Part shown: one piece after another, positions 41,091 to 49,400 of the stretch
How positions within the stretch are numbered: the first letter of the stretch is position 1
How the letters are laid out: every line of letters begins with the position of its first letter
Source: Advenella kashmirensis WT001
GTDB lineage: Bacteria; Pseudomonadota; Gammaproteobacteria; Burkholderiales; Burkholderiaceae_B
Reading direction: 5' to 3'
Assembly: GCF_000219915.2 (NCBI RefSeq)
Contig: NC_017964.1
Coordinates: 3,906,001 to 3,970,000 of the forward strand
Length of the DNA: 64,000 nt
The notes under the pieces: model-generated
The model's database searches: none
Told to the model about the DNA's origin: nothing
Seen by the model: the letters and a program-made list of their open reading frames with translations, nothing else
Position numbers and translations under genes: made by a program

Positions 41091-42833
41091 TCAGACAGAC
41101 GGTTTGGCCCTGTGGCCTTGCACAAGGAATGGAATGCGCAATACAACATCGCGGTCCTTTTGTTTTTCGGCCTCGGGAAGCATCGCCCATTCCACCAGAG
41201 AAGGATGCAAGCGCCGCTGGTCATCACGCTGGGCGCCGTAACGCCAGCCTGCCAGATAACGTTGCGCCATCCAGCGTGTGTGCTCCACCTGTGCGAGCAT
41301 CTCCACCTCCTCGGCGGTAAATGAGAGGGCCTCCTGCACGCCCGCCCCCTGCTCCTGTAGCGCCGCCAGCTTTCCGCACATGGCCAGCTTGTAGGCGATA
41401 TGATCCGCCTGCGCACGATTGGCGTCCTTGGCCTGTTCATTCAACATGTCCCACGATTGCTTGTAAGCATCGCTTTCGCTGAGCGAACCTTGCTGCGGTG
41501 CAAGTTGTTGCAGATAGTCTTCATGAATACTGCGCGCCGTGACGTCCAGCCGCTCCTGTGTAATCAGCTCCACCTGACACACCGATTCCAGACTGCCAAA
41601 AAAGGTCAGCCGGTTCAATCTGCTCTGTCGCGACTTGAGTAGCGCATTCAGGCCATCATTGTGATAGTTCAAGGCGAACACGCGAAACGCGGCTGCAGGA
41701 GTCGCGTGCAATATTTCCAGCGATAGCTTGAGATTGACCGAATCGTCGTCAAAAGCAGCAATCACCACTGGAACAAGATGAGCCGGCGGATCAATGACGA
41801 GCTCATTCAGAATATGATCATAAGCGCCATCGAACGGCATATATTTGATAGACGACACCATTGCGGCACCCGGATACTCGGCAGCCAGTTGCCTGCCTGC
41901 GTGCTCGGCGTCTGCGCCGTACACAATAATGTCCGGCGAGGCCGGATTAATCGTATGCATCACCTGCAGCGCCTGCACCAGCAAGGCTTTGGCCGTCTCT
42001 CCAGCACCAAAGACAATCAGCCGAAAGGCTGCATTGGGATCGCGCATAGGCTGGGCATAGTCATAAGCAAGTCGTGCAAAGAACTGCCGTGCAATCATCT
42101 GATGGTGATTGAAAAACCGCAAGTCAATGCCATTTTTCTTTTCGTCCTCGAAATAGTCCGATTGCTGCAGCATGGTGCTTACCTTGGCGTTGCCTATGTG
42201 CAGGAAACAACGTACCTGATATTTCTCCGGATTTTTCTGCGTGATCTGGTGCAGCGCCCGCACCACATTGATGGTGGTCTGCTCTTTATCCAGAAAACAT
42301 ATCATGAAGCGCGCGCTGCGAATACCCGCATCCTGAAGCACCGCGCTTTGCGTACCATCGCCAAAATAAACAAGATGGCCATCGCGCCGTAGCGCACTCG
42401 CATTGCTATGATCGGCGTCCAGCTCAATGGCCACTCCGGTTGTATCGTGAGTACGCTTCAGATCTGCGAGCAACGCCTGGCCCTTTCGATTAATGCCAAT
42501 CACCAGTATCTGGTTACGCCTGAACAGCAGCCGAAATTGGGTGTAATATTCAACAAAAAGCTTCTGGGCGATCCGATACATTCCTGCCAGCAGCGCCAGC
42601 GTCACCACGATTTTGACCAATGTCAGTTGCCATGGCAGGTTTTCCGGAGGCAAAGACGACGACACCGGGTCCGATCCCATCAGCGTTCGCAAGGTGCGAT
42701 ACAGTCTTTCAGGCAGATAGAGCCATTCATTGATTTGCGGGTAATGCTGTCCCAGGCCGTTCCAGGTCAGCACGATGACCGCGAGCCCACCGATCATGAC
42801 CAGAATGCTTTTTGTACGGCGCGATAATTTCAT
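41091..42833 (-). CDS. Membrane protein with two TrkA-N-like Rossmann regions and C-terminal RyR domain
   Basis: A 580-residue protein with two N-terminal membrane segments (residues about 9-24 and 70-88), then a nucleotide-binding Rossmann region (ILVIGINRKGQALLADL, 109-125), a second one (RLIVFGAGETAKALLVQAL, 271-289) and at the C terminus an RyR-type domain (VEHTRWMAQRYLAGWRYGAQRDD through HPSLVEWAMLPEAEK, about 505-555; key residues HTRW, GW and L-P). No potassium selectivity filter is visible between the membrane segments, so an ion channel is unproven. RyR domains in bacteria have been linked to nucleotide-based conflict and signalling systems. Its ATG abuts the stop of the TIR gene (TAA-ATG), with GGAG nine bases ahead, so the pair is translated together. 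Confidence 0.72.
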   Translation of the reverse strand: MKLSRRTKSILVMIGGLAVIVLTWNGLGQHYPQINEWLYLPERLYRTLRTLMGSDPVSSSLPPENLPWQLTLVKIVVTLALLAGMYRIAQKLFVEYYTQFRLLFRRNQILVIGINRKGQALLADLKRTHDTTGVAIELDADHSNASALRRDGHLVYFGDGTQSAVLQDAGIRSARFMICFLDKEQTTINVVRALHQITQKNPEKYQVRCFLHIGNAKVSTMLQQSDYFEDEKKNGIDLRFFNHHQMIARQFFARLAYDYAQPMRDPNAAFRLIVFGAGETAKALLVQALQVMHTINPASPDIIVYGADAEHAGRQLAAEYPGAAMVSSIKYMPFDGAYDHILNELVIDPPAHLVPVVIAAFDDDSVNLKLSLEILHATPAAAFRVFALNYHNDGLNALLKSRQSRLNRLTFFGSLESVCQVELITQERLDVTARSIHEDYLQQLAPQQGSLSESDAYKQSWDMLNEQAKDANRAQADHIAYKLAMCGKLAALQEQGAGVQEALSFTAEEVEMLAQVEHTRWMAQRYLAGWRYGAQRDDQRRLHPSLVEWAMLPEAEKQKDRDVVLRIPFLVQGHRAKPSV

Positions 42834-45800
42834 TTACGGATGCTCCTGCATGTTTTTCTGCGCCTGCTCAAGCAGCGTCACGGTTTTCTTCCTGACACTT
42901 TCATCCTTTACCCGTTGAAGCTGTAGTTGAGTCATGCGTATCAGGCTATTGGCTACGAATGCGGTGTCCTTATTCTGACTGAAATACACGGCAAGCGCAG
43001 CCCGCGCCTGCGGATGAAAGCGCCAATAGTTGTAGATCAGGCGCAACTGGTCCGGATTACGTATGGGAAGCTGTTTTTCGATATAAGCCGTCAGCGGCAC
43101 CGTGGAGTCTGGCACCAACGGGCGATTGTACGGGTCCTGGAAGAACCATGATTCAGGACGCTGCGCCACACTGGGCGCGTCGACTACGGCCGCAGCGTCG
43201 TTGTCATACTTTTTGCCAAAGTAGATTTCGCTCTGATCGGCCAGCTCCTGCACCGGCCCAAGCAAGGCATCAGGCACCGCCCACACATTCAGTATTGACT
43301 GACTGCTGCGAGTATCCAGCGTGACAATATCCTTGCCATCGGGTAACAGCACCACGTCATCTATCCGACTAATAGCAAATGGCATCACAACGGGCATCCC
43401 GGTTTGCGTGTCATACATGGCAATGCCCTTGTCACTGCGCAGGTCCAGCGGATCGGATGCGAACAGCAGCTGGCCGTCCCGGGAAAATTTCAAATAACCG
43501 CCTGCCGCATCATTTCGGATTTTTTGCCCAACAGCCTGTTTACGCTCCAGGTTCCACAAACGGATATATTTATTGTCTTCGGCCATAGCAAGCATATTGC
43601 CGTCCGGGCTCAATTCAGCCTTCGGTGCATCGCCCGCGGTAGGCAGCGTCAGCCGGCTGACAAAATCTTTCAGATCATACAGCTGGGCCTTGCCGTTGAA
43701 AAAAGCCAGCAGATATTTATTGTCTGGCGTGAAATAGGCGCCCTTGAGCTCGGTCTGCTCCCGGTGCAGTATCTCGCCGGTGGCAACCTGCTGCACCCGC
43801 CACTTGTTTGGCGACTCCAGAACCAGGATGATCGACAAGTCGGCCGACAGTTTATATTTCTCGTTTTTACGCAAGCCAAAAGTCTGCTTACGGTTTCCTG
43901 TCTCTATTTCCCAGATTGCCATTTTCTCGTCGTCAATTCGGGAGGACACCGTGCTGCCATCATGGCTGAACGATATCACGCCTCTGACTGATAAGGGCTT
44001 GCCCATCGGCTTACCTGTTGTGGCACGATAAAACCGCAATGTACTCATACCCTGCCTGGGTTCGGAAATGGTGTAGACGTAGTCCTGTTCGCTGGCAACG
44101 CCAAAGCGGTCAATTTGCTCCGGCGTGCGTATGAAATCTCTGAGTTTGCTGTTGCCTCCCAGCGCTGCGTACTGCAGGTTATGACTATCTTTTTTCAAAA
44201 GCACAACGCCTTTGCCATCTGGCATGGCGCGAAATGACATCAGATCCGGTCCCAGATTCAATTGCGAACGCAATAATGGCGGCGCCAGATCAGTGACCAG
44301 AAAAAATATTCCTTCCTGATTCTCCACACGTTGTGTGAGGTCAGGAGACACATTGGCTACGTCATCACGCAGCATGGCCGAAAGGCTGATACCCGCGTTA
44401 CCGGAGGTCACCGGCGTGTTGTTGTCGATATCGTACACGGTGTAGTTACTCTGCCAGACCACGACAAAAGACCTGCCATCTTCGTTGAAATAAATATCGT
44501 CTGGAATCAGCTGGCCAGCAACTTTGGCGATCTGGCTATCGTTGCGCCGCAAGTCGATGTGATACAGGCCGTTGGCCGCACGCACAAAAACATGACGTGC
44601 ATCCGGACTGAACCTTACCCAGATAATCCCGCCCGGCACCACATAATTCCTGGCCTGCTGCAATTTTCCGTCTGCATCCATGGGATACACGCGCACACGG
44701 TTGTCATTATCCTCGGTCTCGTGAAATGCAATGGCGTTGCCCTGCGGAGCAAACAGGTAGCGTTGAGTGTTGCCGCCCTCGCGTTGTCGCACCGGAACCT
44801 GGTCAATTACCGTTTGCCGGTCGTGCGTATTGAACAGCAGTGATTTGATGTACTGCATTTTGCCGTCGACGACATGCCAGCCCTGTATCACCAGCCATCT
44901 GCCATCCGCACCTGGCGCAAAGGAGACGATACGCAAATCGTTGGGCGCCTTATAAACCGTCTCTTGCGGCTTGCCATCCTGCCACTTTGCTATCGTGTTG
45001 TCGGCCGTCATAAAATACAGCGCATTCTGGCCGTCAAACGCCAGTTTCGAGAAAGCGTTAGCTTTGGCGTCAGTCACTGTGGCATGCAGTTTCTGCGCGT
45101 ATGCATCCCATATCTGCAGGCCGCGCTGCTCGTTGGACGTCGCATTGAGCGCCGCGATCCAATGGCCGTCGGGGCTGAATACAGGTGTTGAATCCAGTCT
45201 GGGCATCGGCGTCATGCCGTTCTGGCGCATTAGCATCGATTGCAGGTATAGCGCGGTCCGTTCATTGCCGTAGCGAGCAGCGGCCGCCATATACGCAGCG
45301 CCTTCGGCCACTTCCTTCTGATCAATCTTATTCAGGCCAGACAGAAACAATGAGCGCGATAGCATGGTTTGCGCAGCATTGCGTTCTGTCCAGGCATATA
45401 CACCCAGCGCCATTGCCATGACAGCCAGCACTCCGATCACAACTGCAATCCGCTTGACAATCTTCGTACGCTGCCTGGCCTTGGCCAGTTGATAGGCCTG
45501 ATCACGCTGTGTCAAGTCGCCCAGCGGCACGTCAAGCACACCCGCAATAATCTTGAGCTTGGCCAGATCAAGCCGATCCTTGTACGCCTGAACGCGGCGC
45601 TCCACTTCCTTTCTGGACAGGGTTCGATCGCCCTGCAAAGACTGCCTGTAGGCCTCGGGCGTCGTAAAACCCTGGTCCTGCGTACCGGGCAGACGAACGT
45701 CCGCAGCGATGGGCTCCTGACTTACGCTGTGATCGATATTGCCGGACTCATCTACACGATATCGCAGCACTTCCGGAAAACACTGCTGCGCGGAAGACTC

Positions 45801-46205
45801 TGTGCCGTATTCCGGTTCCCCGGCAAGGATCAACGCAATAATCCGATCGCCCTTGCCGGTTTGTTTGAAACGGCGCAGTTCTTCGCTTACATAAACAGAA
45901 CGGGCCGATTGTGGTGAACTTAAGTAGACAAGATAAGATGAGGCATCAAGCGCTGCGGTCAGCGCCGAAGACAAGCTGGCGCTGGCCGACAGTTCCTTTT
46001 CGTCCTGAAAAACGGGGTAGATCTGCGCCGCTATCGGTTTGCCGGCGCGATTGGGTCTGCCCACCAGATCGGCAGGCACCTCGTAGGTTTCCAGTTCGTG
46101 ATGCAGCCAGTCTGCCCATTTGCGCCCCTCCTGTCTGTTATCAGCGTGGCTGTAACTGATAAACGCCGCATAGGTCAGCCGGTTGTCTGCCGTTTCTTCG
46201 GTCAT
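42834..46205 (-). CDS. TIR-domain protein with membrane segment and C-terminal beta-propeller
   Basis: About 1,123 residues from ATG 46205. An N-terminal TIR domain (FISYSHADNRQEGRKWADWL from about residue 15; IYPVFQDEKELSAS; LVYLSSPQSARSVYVSEELRRF) includes a candidate catalytic Glu in the SEE motif around 107-109. A linker leads to one membrane segment (RIAVVIGVLAVMAMALGVYA, about 252-271), followed by roughly 700 residues of WD40/propeller-like repeats (FSPDGHWIAAL, FSPDARHVFV, LSPDGNMLAMAEDNKYIRLWNL) and a helical tail. TIR domains of this kind usually consume NAD or make a cyclic ADP-ribose signal, and propellers serve as sensors. The RyR gene follows with no gap. Function as a defence or stress sensor is inferred. 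Confidence 0.8.
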   Translation of the reverse strand: MTEETADNRLTYAAFISYSHADNRQEGRKWADWLHHELETYEVPADLVGRPNRAGKPIAAQIYPVFQDEKELSASASLSSALTAALDASSYLVYLSSPQSARSVYVSEELRRFKQTGKGDRIIALILAGEPEYGTESSAQQCFPEVLRYRVDESGNIDHSVSQEPIAADVRLPGTQDQGFTTPEAYRQSLQGDRTLSRKEVERRVQAYKDRLDLAKLKIIAGVLDVPLGDLTQRDQAYQLAKARQRTKIVKRIAVVIGVLAVMAMALGVYAWTERNAAQTMLSRSLFLSGLNKIDQKEVAEGAAYMAAAARYGNERTALYLQSMLMRQNGMTPMPRLDSTPVFSPDGHWIAALNATSNEQRGLQIWDAYAQKLHATVTDAKANAFSKLAFDGQNALYFMTADNTIAKWQDGKPQETVYKAPNDLRIVSFAPGADGRWLVIQGWHVVDGKMQYIKSLLFNTHDRQTVIDQVPVRQREGGNTQRYLFAPQGNAIAFHETEDNDNRVRVYPMDADGKLQQARNYVVPGGIIWVRFSPDARHVFVRAANGLYHIDLRRNDSQIAKVAGQLIPDDIYFNEDGRSFVVVWQSNYTVYDIDNNTPVTSGNAGISLSAMLRDDVANVSPDLTQRVENQEGIFFLVTDLAPPLLRSQLNLGPDLMSFRAMPDGKGVVLLKKDSHNLQYAALGGNSKLRDFIRTPEQIDRFGVASEQDYVYTISEPRQGMSTLRFYRATTGKPMGKPLSVRGVISFSHDGSTVSSRIDDEKMAIWEIETGNRKQTFGLRKNEKYKLSADLSIILVLESPNKWRVQQVATGEILHREQTELKGAYFTPDNKYLLAFFNGKAQLYDLKDFVSRLTLPTAGDAPKAELSPDGNMLAMAEDNKYIRLWNLERKQAVGQKIRNDAAGGYLKFSRDGQLLFASDPLDLRSDKGIAMYDTQTGMPVVMPFAISRIDDVVLLPDGKDIVTLDTRSSQSILNVWAVPDALLGPVQELADQSEIYFGKKYDNDAAAVVDAPSVAQRPESWFFQDPYNRPLVPDSTVPLTAYIEKQLPIRNPDQLRLIYNYWRFHPQARAALAVYFSQNKDTAFVANSLIRMTQLQLQRVKDESVRKKTVTLLEQAQKNMQEHP

Positions 46206-46345
46206 ATTATCTTTATGCTGACAGGCTCCCAAGCCATGGTTTTACTGTAGATCGGCGCTATAGACAATAGCCGGCCACCCGGTTTACGGCAAAATGATGT
46301 ATCGGATTGTGAGTTCCTTATTGCGCTTGTGTTAGCGCGGTACGG

Positions 46346-47109: not shown

Positions 47110-49400
47110 TCAGCCCTCGACGCGATTCGCGTCAATAACCGTTAGTGCAGCCATATTAACGATGCGTCGAACAGTAGAGCTTGAGGTCAGGATATGCACT
47201 GGCGCATTCACACCCAACAGGAACGGTCCGACCGCCACGTTGCCCCCGGCCACGGTTTTGAGCAGGTTATAGGCAATATTGCCCGAGTCGACGTTGGGGC
47301 AGACCAGCAAGTTGGCTGATCCCTTCAATGTCGATGAAGGCAGAATGCGCTCGCGCAGCACTTCATTCAATGCGCAGTCACCGTGCATTTCACCGTCAAT
47401 TTCCAGCTCCGGCTCCTGTGCCCGCACCAGCTCCAGCGCACGCCGCATCTTGTCGCCAGAAGCTGAACTGCCCGAGCCGAAATTGGACCGCGACAGCAAG
47501 GCCACCTTGGCACAACGTCCATCTGCGCCAGTACCTTCGCCGCAGCCAGGGTGTACTCGGCAATCTGTTCGGCGGTAGGATCATCATTGATGTGGGTATC
47601 GACCAGCGCCACCATGCGCTGATCCAGCAGCAGGATATTCATGGCGGCATACGAAGACGTACCGGGTTTTTTACCGATCATCTGGTCAACGAAACGCAAA
47701 TGGTCATGATAGGAGCCTACCGTGCCGCAGATCATGCCATCGGCATCGCCGACATGTACCATCATGGCACCGATCAGGGTCAGGCGGCGGCGCATTTCCA
47801 CGCGCGCCATTTCCTTTGTGATACCACGGCGGCACATGACTTCCCAGTATTTGGTCCAGTACTGATGAAAGCGCGAGTCAAATTCCGGGTTGGTTACCTC
47901 TACGTCCTCGCCCAGCTTCAGACGCAGTCCATATTTTTCAATGCGGGCCAGCAGAACAGAAGGACGGCCCACCAGGATCGGACGCGCCAGCTTTTCATCG
48001 ACCACAACCTGCACCGCACGCAATACGCGTTCATCTTCGCCTTCGGTAAAGACAATGCGGGCCTTGCCGCCATCGCGAACAATCTGTTTGGCCGAAGCAA
48101 ACAGCGGCTTCATGAAAGCACCGGAATGATATACAAACTGCTGCAGTCTTTCGGCATAGGCCTCCAGATCATCCAGCGGCCGTGTTGCCACACCGCTTTC
48201 CATGGCCGCCTTGGCCACAGCAGGCGCCACGCGGACAATCAGGCGAGGATCGAAAGGCTTGGGAATCAGATATTCCGGGCCAAATGACAAATCATAGCCA
48301 CCGTAGGCAGTAGCGACCACATCGCTGATTTCCTCTTTGGCCAGCCCGGCGATCGCATAAACCGCGGCTTTTTCCATTTCACGGGTAATGGTGGTGGCGC
48401 CCACATCCAGCGCGCCACGGAAAATATACGGGAAGCACAGTACGTTATTGACCTGATTGGGAAAATCGGAGCGGCCGGTGGCCATGACCACGTCGTCACG
48501 CACTGCCAATGCCACTTCCGGCATGATTTCCGGATTCGGATTGGCCAGCGCCAGGATCAGCGGGCGTGCCGCCATGGTTTTGACCATTTCGGGCTTGAGC
48601 ACGCCCCCGGCGGACAAGCCCAGAAAAACGTCGGCGCCATCGATCACATCGGCCAGCGTACGGTGCTCGGTTTTCTGCGCAAAGCGCTGCATCTCAGGGC
48701 CCATGGGCGTATTACGGCCTTCATAAACCACCCCGTCGATATCCGTCACAAATACATTTTCCAGCGGCAGACCCAGATCCACCATCAAATCCAGACATGC
48801 CAGCGCTGCTGCGCCTGCTCCGGACGACACCACCTTCACACTTGTAATATCCTTGCCGACCACCGTCAGGCCGTTGATAAAGGCCGCCGCAACAGTAATC
48901 GCGGTGCCATGCTGATCGTCATGGAATACGGGAATACTCATGCGCTCGCGCAGTTTACGCTCTACCTCAAAACACTCCGGCGCCTTGATGTCTTCCAGGT
49001 TGATGCCGCCAAAGGTGGCCTCAAGCCCCGCAATAATTTCCACCAGCTTGTCCGGATCGGTTTCATTGATCTCGATATCAAAAACATCCAGACCGGCAAA
49101 TTTCTTGAACAGAACAGCCTTGCCTTCCATAACTGGCTTGGAGGCCAGTGCGCCGATATTTCCCAGGCCAAGCACAGCGGTGCCGTTGCTGATCACGCCC
49201 ACCAGATTGCCACGCGCGGTATAGCGGAATGCATTGAGAGGGTCGGCTACGATTTCTTCACAGGCAGCCGCCACACCCGGCGTATAGGCCAGCCCCAGAT
49301 CCCGCTGGGTAACCAGCGGTTTGGAAGCGGTAATGGATATCTTGCCTGGCACGGGAAATTCATGATAATCCAGCGCGGATTGACGATCGATAGTACTCAT
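47110..49400 (-). CDS. maeB: NADP-dependent malic enzyme MaeB, frame interrupted
   Basis: Decarboxylates malate to pyruvate with NADP reduction. The N-terminal malic enzyme domain has [25 protein letters not shown] (metal ligands) and [16 protein letters not shown] (cofactor fold); the C-terminal phosphotransacetylase-like domain ([15 protein letters not shown] onward) is the mark of the MaeB type and acts as a regulatory domain for acetyl-CoA. Joined length of about 763 residues is normal. The frame breaks near 47500: AQMDVVPK continues [11 protein letters not shown] after one base. Divergent from a LysR gene. Confidence 0.92.

Follow-up and report, generated by a model that had tools for sequence, protein, structure and literature searches.

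A TIR-propeller protein and an RCK-RyR membrane protein encoded side by side in Advenella kashmirensis: a candidate Thoeris-like signalling pair

Nucleotide-centred conflict systems are reportedly the subject of older comparative work from the Aravind group. Several of the systems closest to the locus considered here are described in three sources. In the first (PMC11204291), a Thoeris system of Escherichia coli CFT073 type contains a ThsA effector with transmembrane segments and a macro domain, and nucleotide binding has been proposed to cluster those segments. In the second, a 2026 preprint (PMC13232231), phage RyR-domain proteins are reported to bind two products of TIR enzymes, the cyclic ADP-ribose (cADPR) isomers 2'cADPR and 3'cADPR, and one of these proteins cleaves both; complexes were formed by six of eight phage homologues, and the ligand contacts in the phage protein RyDEP are H75, W78, H100 and D117. 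The idea of a link between cADPR and the ryanodine receptor in animals is mentioned there, and no bacterial RyR effector is named in the part used here. In the third (PMC13174449), DUF4062 is presented as a TIR-like family that consumes nicotinamide adenine dinucleotide (NAD), and neither “RyR” nor “ryanodine” is mentioned in its main text. Here, two adjoining genes, termed gene 1 and gene 2, at positions 41,091 to 46,205 of a stretch of 64,000 nucleotides from Advenella kashmirensis WT001 (contig NC_017964.1, positions 3,906,001 to 3,970,000; hereafter the window), were compared with these systems. Named homologues likewise place this DNA in the genus Advenella (Alcaligenaceae).

The pair is interpreted, with confidence a little better than even, as a membrane-bound Thoeris-like system in which a receptor-like TIR enzyme, encoded by gene 1, would act together with an RyR-gated, RCK-type membrane effector, encoded by gene 2. 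This reading joins two separate findings, namely that TIR enzymes produce cADPR signals and that RyR domains bind these, the binding having been shown for phage counter-defence proteins (PMC13232231). Here, an RyR domain is present in a host membrane protein that is encoded beside a TIR enzyme, and RyR and TIR genes recur as neighbours in Methanoregula as well as across many groups of bacteria. A first-pass annotation, made from the sequence of the window, had already suggested a signal-producing and a signal-receiving protein at the membrane, and had named a known defence system containing both proteins as an argument against itself. None was found. A PADLOC-listed system was rejected, the sole match at E<=1 being a weak one of SAVED_TIR to gene 1 (E 0.0058), and no PADLOC model matched gene 2. 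Among the literature matches listed there was no described TIR-RCK-RyR system; further Thoeris types, reported in one preprint, lie outside the comparison.

Arrangement and co-inheritance of the gene pair

Both genes are read from the minus strand. The open reading frame (ORF) of gene 1 extends from 46205 to 42834 and encodes 1123 residues counted from an ATG, at the same alignment column at which homologue P0022 starts; an alternative TTG start at 46232 would give an ORF of 1132 residues. Gene 2 extends from 42833 to 41091 and encodes 580 residues, and the TAA of gene 1 touches the ATG of gene 2 without any gap. The first-pass annotation had described two large genes abutting in this manner, and both ORFs were recovered at the same coordinates, with the strand now specified as minus. 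The joint translation that it had proposed is likely, because the contact of stop and start codon is accompanied by a stretch resembling a ribosome-binding site within gene 1. An identical AGGAG stretch is also present in the loci L023, L024 and L031.

42834..46205, minus strand: gene 1, with TIR domain, transmembrane helix, probably two beta-propellers and C-terminal helical domain (ORF, Pfam, structure model)
41091..42833, minus strand: gene 2, with two predicted transmembrane helices, two RCK/TrkA-type Rossmann folds and RyR domain (ORF, Pfam, structure model)
42843..42847, minus strand: AGGAG, ribosome-binding-like stretch for gene 2, within the end of gene 1 (sequence)

Gene 1 and gene 2 form a unit. 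Among ten Advenella genomes, the same six carry both genes and the same four carry neither. A scan of named genomes with an alignment of RyR proteins yielded 161 matching stretches, 80 of which were kept as loci. Eleven of these (L022-L032) are orthologous, matching at 36-94% identity along the greater part of the protein, and belong to Advenella, Sphingobacterium, Brachymonas, Diaphorobacter and a Cardiobacteriaceae bacterium; Sphingobacterium is a member of the Bacteroidota. The TIR-propeller partner lies directly upstream in nine of the eleven loci; in the other two it is cut by the end of the contig, with its C-terminal part present. The co-occurrence that the first-pass annotation proposed to examine is therefore borne out, both within Advenella and in all eleven orthologous loci. 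Furthermore, the distance matrices of gene 1 and gene 2 over 12 pairs, three of them linked indirectly, correlated at r=0.984, a value reached in 0 of 2000 permutations; L022 and L028, which are cut, and L032, in which the second gene is interrupted, were left out of this mirror test. The family is rare, since the window's own genome was the sole one of 399 genomes drawn from the order to match at E 1e-80. The plain annotations “NAD-binding protein” and “TIR protein” were rejected as a full account, neighbourhood and co-inheritance being too strong.

Two single cases should also be recorded. In Diaphorobacter aerolatus (L032, 10001-11657) the RyR gene is interrupted and the TIR partner is whole. 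The protein P0079, of 1083 residues, runs from TIR, transmembrane segment and propeller straight into an RyR domain, and is represented by one cluster on one contig; little weight was given to this fusion as proof of partnership, a deletion or an assembly error being possible.

Domain architecture of the two proteins

The following parts of gene 1 were delimited, with residues in ATG numbering.

45801..46172, minus strand: TIR domain, about residues 12-135 (Pfam TIR_2 above cut-off; model)
45879..45881, minus strand: Glu109, presumed catalytic TIR glutamate (conservation)
45393..45449, minus strand: one transmembrane segment, about residues 253-271, with the positive charge on its TIR side (hydropathy peak 2.54)
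43278..45215, minus strand: probably two beta-propellers, about residues 331-976, predicted extracytoplasmic (model strands; Foldseek)
42843..43253, minus strand: C-terminal helical domain, about residues 985-1121 (model)

The TIR_2 profile matched the protein of gene 1 with 37.8 bits against a cut-off of 28, and this was the single TIR_2 match at E<=0.001 in the 4.4-Mb Advenella genome. Glu109, presumed from the TIR motif to be the catalytic residue, is kept in 58/58 aligned proteins, and the adjacent position 108 varies between D, E, Q and N. A degenerate TIR pocket in homologues, which the first-pass annotation had listed as a point that would count against it, was accordingly not encountered. 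The invariance of this glutamate beside a freely varying position also argues against a quite improbable alternative (the rival explanations are partly compatible with one another), in which the TIR domain would serve as a scaffold without enzyme activity, the two proteins would signal by direct contact and the RyR domain would bind ordinary adenine nucleotides, for example ATP. Structure titles are consistent with this alternative, human RyR3 domains having been solved with ATP and AMP-PCP, and RCK-type proteins with NAD, ADP or ATP. It is opposed again by the linkage of RyR genes with DUF4062, for which NADase activity is reported (PMC13174449).

Positively charged residues tend to lie on the cytoplasmic side of a membrane segment, and this rule was used for orientation. 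The positive charge was greater before the transmembrane segment than after it in 62/62 proteins of gene 1 type; no cysteine follows the segment in the protein of the window, nor in 37/62 of the proteins compared. On the basis of the charge and cysteine pattern, the propellers are predicted to be located outside the cytoplasm and the TIR domain inside. The predicted structure of gene 1 (predicted local distance difference test, pLDDT, 84.5; predicted template modelling score 0.68) displays the TIR domain, a long helix across the transmembrane region, strands over residues 331-976 and the C-terminal helical domain, in which no Pfam match was obtained. Many WD40 and other propeller models of Pfam matched (best E 6e-20), each under its own curated cut-off, so that the propeller assignment rests on the structure model. 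Since the top Foldseek matches include double-propeller proteins, such as Apaf-1 and Pwp2, the strands were read as two propellers, and gene 1 probably carries two rather than one. The first-pass description of this protein holds for the TIR domain (TIR_2) and the one membrane segment (hydropathy and model), and its single propeller is revised to a probable pair.

In gene 2, the corresponding list is as follows.

42744..42821, minus strand: predicted transmembrane helix 1, residues 5-30 (model; hydropathy peak)
42558..42632, minus strand: predicted transmembrane helix 2, residues 68-92 (model; hydropathy peak)
42060..42518, minus strand: first Rossmann/RCK fold (TrkA_N), about residues 106-258 (Pfam; structural matches to GsuK, MthK, KefC and others)
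41550..42038, minus strand: second Rossmann/RCK-like fold, about residues 266-428 (model; covered by GsuK, KtrA and CASTOR gating-ring alignments)
41133..41453, minus strand: RyR (R12) domain, about residues 461-567 (PF02026 at 510-564; N-terminal part by family conservation)
41154..41282, minus strand: region holding H518, W521, H543 and D560, the equivalents of the four RyDEP ligand residues (spacing compared with RyDEP)

Two Pfam families matched the protein of gene 2 at E<=1, namely TrkA_N (53.4 bits, cut-off 23.8) and RyR (PF02026; 48.4 bits, cut-off 27.4), with no match to SIR2 or SLOG. The predicted structure (pLDDT 87) contains two N-terminal helices of transmembrane type, two successive Rossmann-like folds and a C-terminal RyR domain, which agrees well, as do the Pfam matches, with the order of parts given in the first-pass annotation (two membrane segments, two TrkA-N-like folds, RyR). 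Structures of RyR3 Repeat12 match the RyR domain in both sequence and fold. The best fold matches for the whole were the GsuK channel and the gating rings of CASTOR/DMI1; in the model and these matches, which have low TM-scores, the layout of an RCK-gated channel is present, two transmembrane helices being followed by tandem RCK folds. At least two hydrophobic peaks were observed within the first 150 residues in 38/44 aligned RyR proteins. Gene 2 may be a channel that conducts ions, as far as its modelled layout suggests.

The four ligand residues of RyDEP have equivalents in gene 2 with equal spacing (+3, +25 and +42 from H518). These equivalents, H518, W521, H543 and D560, are kept in 44, 44, 41 and 41 of 44 aligned proteins, respectively, and the exact spacing in 38/44. 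This alignment was hand-picked, 15 proteins coming from the homologue search and the window and 29 from the 80 loci, and it includes the SpoIIE fusion L079.

RyR-TIR linkage, genomic setting and rival explanations

The whole genomes to which 72 of the 80 loci belong were searched with the Pfam models TIR_2 and RyR, the genomes having been found through their RyR protein and the distances taken by eye from match tables. A first set of 47 loci was picked after inspection of some neighbourhoods, 46 of which were covered, with L066 left out, and 26 loci were added later; L022, L023, L024, L026, L028, L031 and L032, all orthologous pairs, stood outside the search. A TIR_2 match was present within 10 kb of RyR in 4/4 orthologue genomes. 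In the non-orthologue genomes this was the case in 19/68, whereas the number of TIR matches and the size of the genomes lead one to expect 1.15. The 19 comprise 14/42 of the first set, 0/8 of the long-protein loci added later and 5/18 of L084-L101, and three of them are Promicromonospora genomes, which are not independent. With a custom TIR hidden Markov model (HMM) applied to 53 distant long-protein loci, TIR was found within 2.5 kb in 7 (229 kb) versus 2 beyond (448 kb). This model was too narrow, since Pfam revealed further TIR in L034, L054, L066, L071, L076 and L081, and the impression it had given of short RyR genes without TIR neighbours was overturned by the 5/18 obtained with Pfam.

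The TIR partners vary. A TIR-TPR protein was observed in an alphaproteobacterium, and TIR-WD40 partners in Lachnospiraceae, Actinomadura and Akkermansiaceae. A verrucomicrobial genome contains a TIR-NB-ARC-TPR gene with an RyR gene on either side, and in an acidobacterial genome the TIR protein also carries an NTPase domain and TPR. In Methanoregula (L034, 9050-11476 and 14785-18243), each of two RyR genes has its own TIR gene upstream. In a Bacteroidales genome (L044) the RyR gene is followed by a DUF4062-NACHT-TPR gene, and on the Arcobacter plasmid CP146529.1 (L134, 4991-8714) separate NAD-binding and RyR genes are followed by DUF4062, next to an integrase and the R gene of a type I restriction system. 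Other settings were also seen: in L045 (8017-10972), without TIR, an LSDAT_prok gene (the SLOG of TRPM) lies directly upstream of the RyR gene, and in L125 (5371-16952) the RyR gene is flanked by two caspase-domain genes and lies opposite a TIR-nSTAND1-WD40 gene.

Several observations weigh against the favoured explanation. With regard to the membrane part, the Foldseek TM-scores are low (query-normalised 0.33-0.40 in most GsuK, TrkA and CASTOR rows) and the root-mean-square deviations high, and for this reason the label “channel” rests on the order of the folds. No canonical K+ filter (TVGYG-like) was seen in residues 1-150 of P0002, and a filter-related stretch occurs in 1/44 aligned proteins, L074 alone. 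With regard to the ligand, the four residues are conserved over the whole RyR family, human RyRs included (PMC13232231), so that their conservation indicates a competent pocket and says nothing about cADPR as its ligand. Moreover, the catalytic H-D pair of RyDEP is also kept, and gene 2 could consequently destroy the signal. With regard to linkage, 49/68 non-orthologue genomes, some on short contigs, have no TIR_2 within 10 kb of RyR, implying that RyR proteins are active in other contexts as well. Of the five linked matches added last, four are RyR-only proteins with open frames of 116-149 residues, and since such short genes stand beside TIR genes, the linkage needs no membrane part. Finally, the Advenella locus is situated among metabolic genes at a stable site and not in a defence island, which weakens the phage-defence part of the reading.

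The kept catalytic residues, with H75 and D117 of RyDEP corresponding to H518 (44/44) and D560 (41/44), bear directly on the main rival, which is regarded as rather unlikely. It makes gene 2 a brake against self-poisoning, whose RyR domain would bind the TIR signal at the membrane, or hydrolyse it, in the manner of phage RyDEP, with gene 1 as the sole effector, depleting NAD+. Phage RyR proteins do act as glycosidases or sponges (PMC13232231). The tight coupling and equal co-inheritance described above would also fit a toxin-antidote pair. In four other genomes (G877, G882, G883 and G884; loci L094, L099, L100 and L101) a short RyR-only gene has a TIR gene within about 3 kb, and these short genes may encode RyDEP-like host proteins that buffer or receive TIR signals; they support binding or buffering as well as gating, and because they help this rival the confidence in the favoured explanation was lowered slightly. 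A brake, however, would have no need of a pair of transmembrane helices or of gating-ring-type RCK folds in tandem. The other phage homologues tested did not cleave despite their conserved residues, and two of these were shown to be sponges (PMC13232231). Furthermore, RyR is found elsewhere fused to output domains, namely the SpoIIE phosphatase (L079, 2058-3896), RelA/SpoT (L130, 5910-8432) and class 3 adenylate cyclase domains (PF00211; P0145, P0148 and P0153), in which it looks like a sensor input.

The genomic setting bears on a further rival, to which a similarly low probability is assigned, namely a housekeeping device for envelope, osmotic or potassium stress, in which the propellers sense the periplasm and the TIR output gates an RCK-type channel, phage being uninvolved. 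The predicted external propellers and the RCK-channel-like partner would suit such a device, as would the chromosomal site among metabolic genes that is common to the six carrier Advenella genomes. The pair is flanked there by genes of malic enzyme/phosphotransacetylase type on one side and by ABC-transporter genes on the other, and the same flanks occur in the five other carriers; the gene 1 locus of G006 falls on two contigs, and the two flank matches of G001 are separated by about 5 kb of other sequence. Given these shared flanks, a recent mobile insertion in Advenella is unsupported. No clean empty site was readable in the four non-carriers, whose two flank matches are on different contigs. 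Conversely, the patchy spread of the family within the order and its presence in Sphingobacterium look like a transferable accessory system, and the Arcobacter plasmid, on which RyR and DUF4062 adjoin the restriction and integrase genes described above, likewise speaks against housekeeping. No plasmid or phage record covered 80% of gene 2 and no plasmid record covered 80% of gene 1, for which plasmids were the collection searched; the nearest plasmid-collection relatives of gene 2 are distant (76-78% coverage, 21-23% identity; records of Sinorhizobium medicae and Fusobacterium vincentii).

A housekeeping role is also opposed by two Diaphorobacter loci (L030, 14959-21681; L032, 15351-21623), in which Cas9/Cas1 genes and a repeat array with a period of 66 bp lie about 3-4 kb downstream of the pair, with a methionine synthase gene in between in L030. 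The PADLOC models of Cas9 and Cas1 each matched in 2 of 50 neighbours, and Cas9 in L030 and Cas1 in L032 were checked singly; matches of mad and AriA were left out of this tally, made among the matches listed (25 of 30 families). The distance to known defence genes, to which the first-pass annotation had looked for a decision, gave a divided answer, with the two Diaphorobacter loci in favour and the Advenella locus against. We infer that phage defence is the likely role of the pair. It should be added that the neighbouring malic enzyme/phosphotransacetylase gene of the window (47110-49400, minus strand) is split over two frames, with positions 3-196 of the PTA_PTB profile in ORF 47367-49400 and positions 198-319 in ORF 47110-47505, which is either a frame break or a sequencing error.

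Proposed mechanism and comparison with known systems

In the favoured explanation, the double propeller would sense a cue outside the cytoplasm, or respond to envelope damage, and the single membrane helix would relay this to the TIR domain in the cytosol, which would then convert NAD+ to a signal of ADP-ribose type, most likely a cADPR isomer. This signal would be bound by the RyR domain of gene 2, and the linked tandem RCK folds, acting as a gating ring, may subsequently cause the two-helix membrane part to open or to cluster. The outcome would be leak, depolarisation or an arrest of growth, and would most likely serve as a response to phage or to envelope stress. We infer the NAD chemistry, the identity of the signal, the ligand binding, the channel function and the biological role of the pair from the evidence presented above. 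The pair of signal producer and signal receiver put forward in the first-pass annotation gains support from the co-occurrence, the intact glutamate, the kept RyDEP residues and the RyR-TIR linkage, and continues to be an interpretation.

If the RyR domain does receive the TIR signal, the pair would provide a bacterial model for the disputed link between cADPR and the ryanodine receptor, a new class of Thoeris-like effector and a bacterial receptor with a Toll-like layout. More broadly, and with somewhat less than even confidence, a general TIR-to-RyR axis of bacteria and archaea is envisaged, in which TIR or DUF4062 enzymes with varied sensors would make signals of cADPR type that gate RCK-type membrane proteins through RyR, or that are buffered by small RyR proteins. 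Were this true, the double-propeller family would represent a receptor resembling Toll-like receptors, the phage RyDEP would be a captured and stripped-down receiver domain of the host, and the animal link between cADPR and the ryanodine receptor would gain a prokaryotic counterpart.

With respect to Thoeris, a TIR domain with an intact glutamate of catalytic type is present (TIR_2 above cut-off; 58/58), and neither a SIR2-SLOG nor a transmembrane-macro ThsA was found in gene 2 (Pfam and PADLOC, E<=1); the pair was not filed as Thoeris because the receiver domain differs. As in the transmembrane-macro type (PMC11204291), a TIR enzyme is combined with a membrane effector that carries a putative nucleotide-sensing domain, whereas here RyR takes the place of macro, tandem RCK folds are added and the TIR protein too is anchored in the membrane, its double propeller being predicted to lie outside. 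As in the SIR2-SLOG ThsA type (PMC11204291), the TIR product would serve as signal to an adjacent effector, but gene 2 has no SIR2 or SLOG match and, by sequence, is no NADase effector. The phage protein RyDEP shares the RyR/R12 domain and its four ligand residues, spacing included; it is a signal-removing phage protein, whereas the RyR domain here forms the end of a membrane protein of the host, which is paired with a TIR protein. The RCK folds are of the gating-ring type known from GsuK, MthK, CASTOR/DMI1, TrkA and Slo, and are located after transmembrane helices in GsuK and MthK also. In contrast to RCK channels, there is no canonical K+ filter in P0002, a C-terminal RyR domain is added and the TM-scores are low. 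Swarozyc (DUF4062; PMC13174449) likewise contains a TIR-like NADase, and DUF4062 genes adjoin RyR genes in L044 and on the Arcobacter plasmid; it belongs to a different TIR-like family and is reported to assemble with the phage portal. The animal idea of cADPR acting on the ryanodine receptor is similar, by analogy only, in placing an RyR domain in a channel-type protein. Animal Toll-like receptors have a sensor outside, one transmembrane segment and a TIR domain inside. Gene 1 would share this layout, again as an analogy only, with another sensor fold and no claim to common descent of the whole protein.

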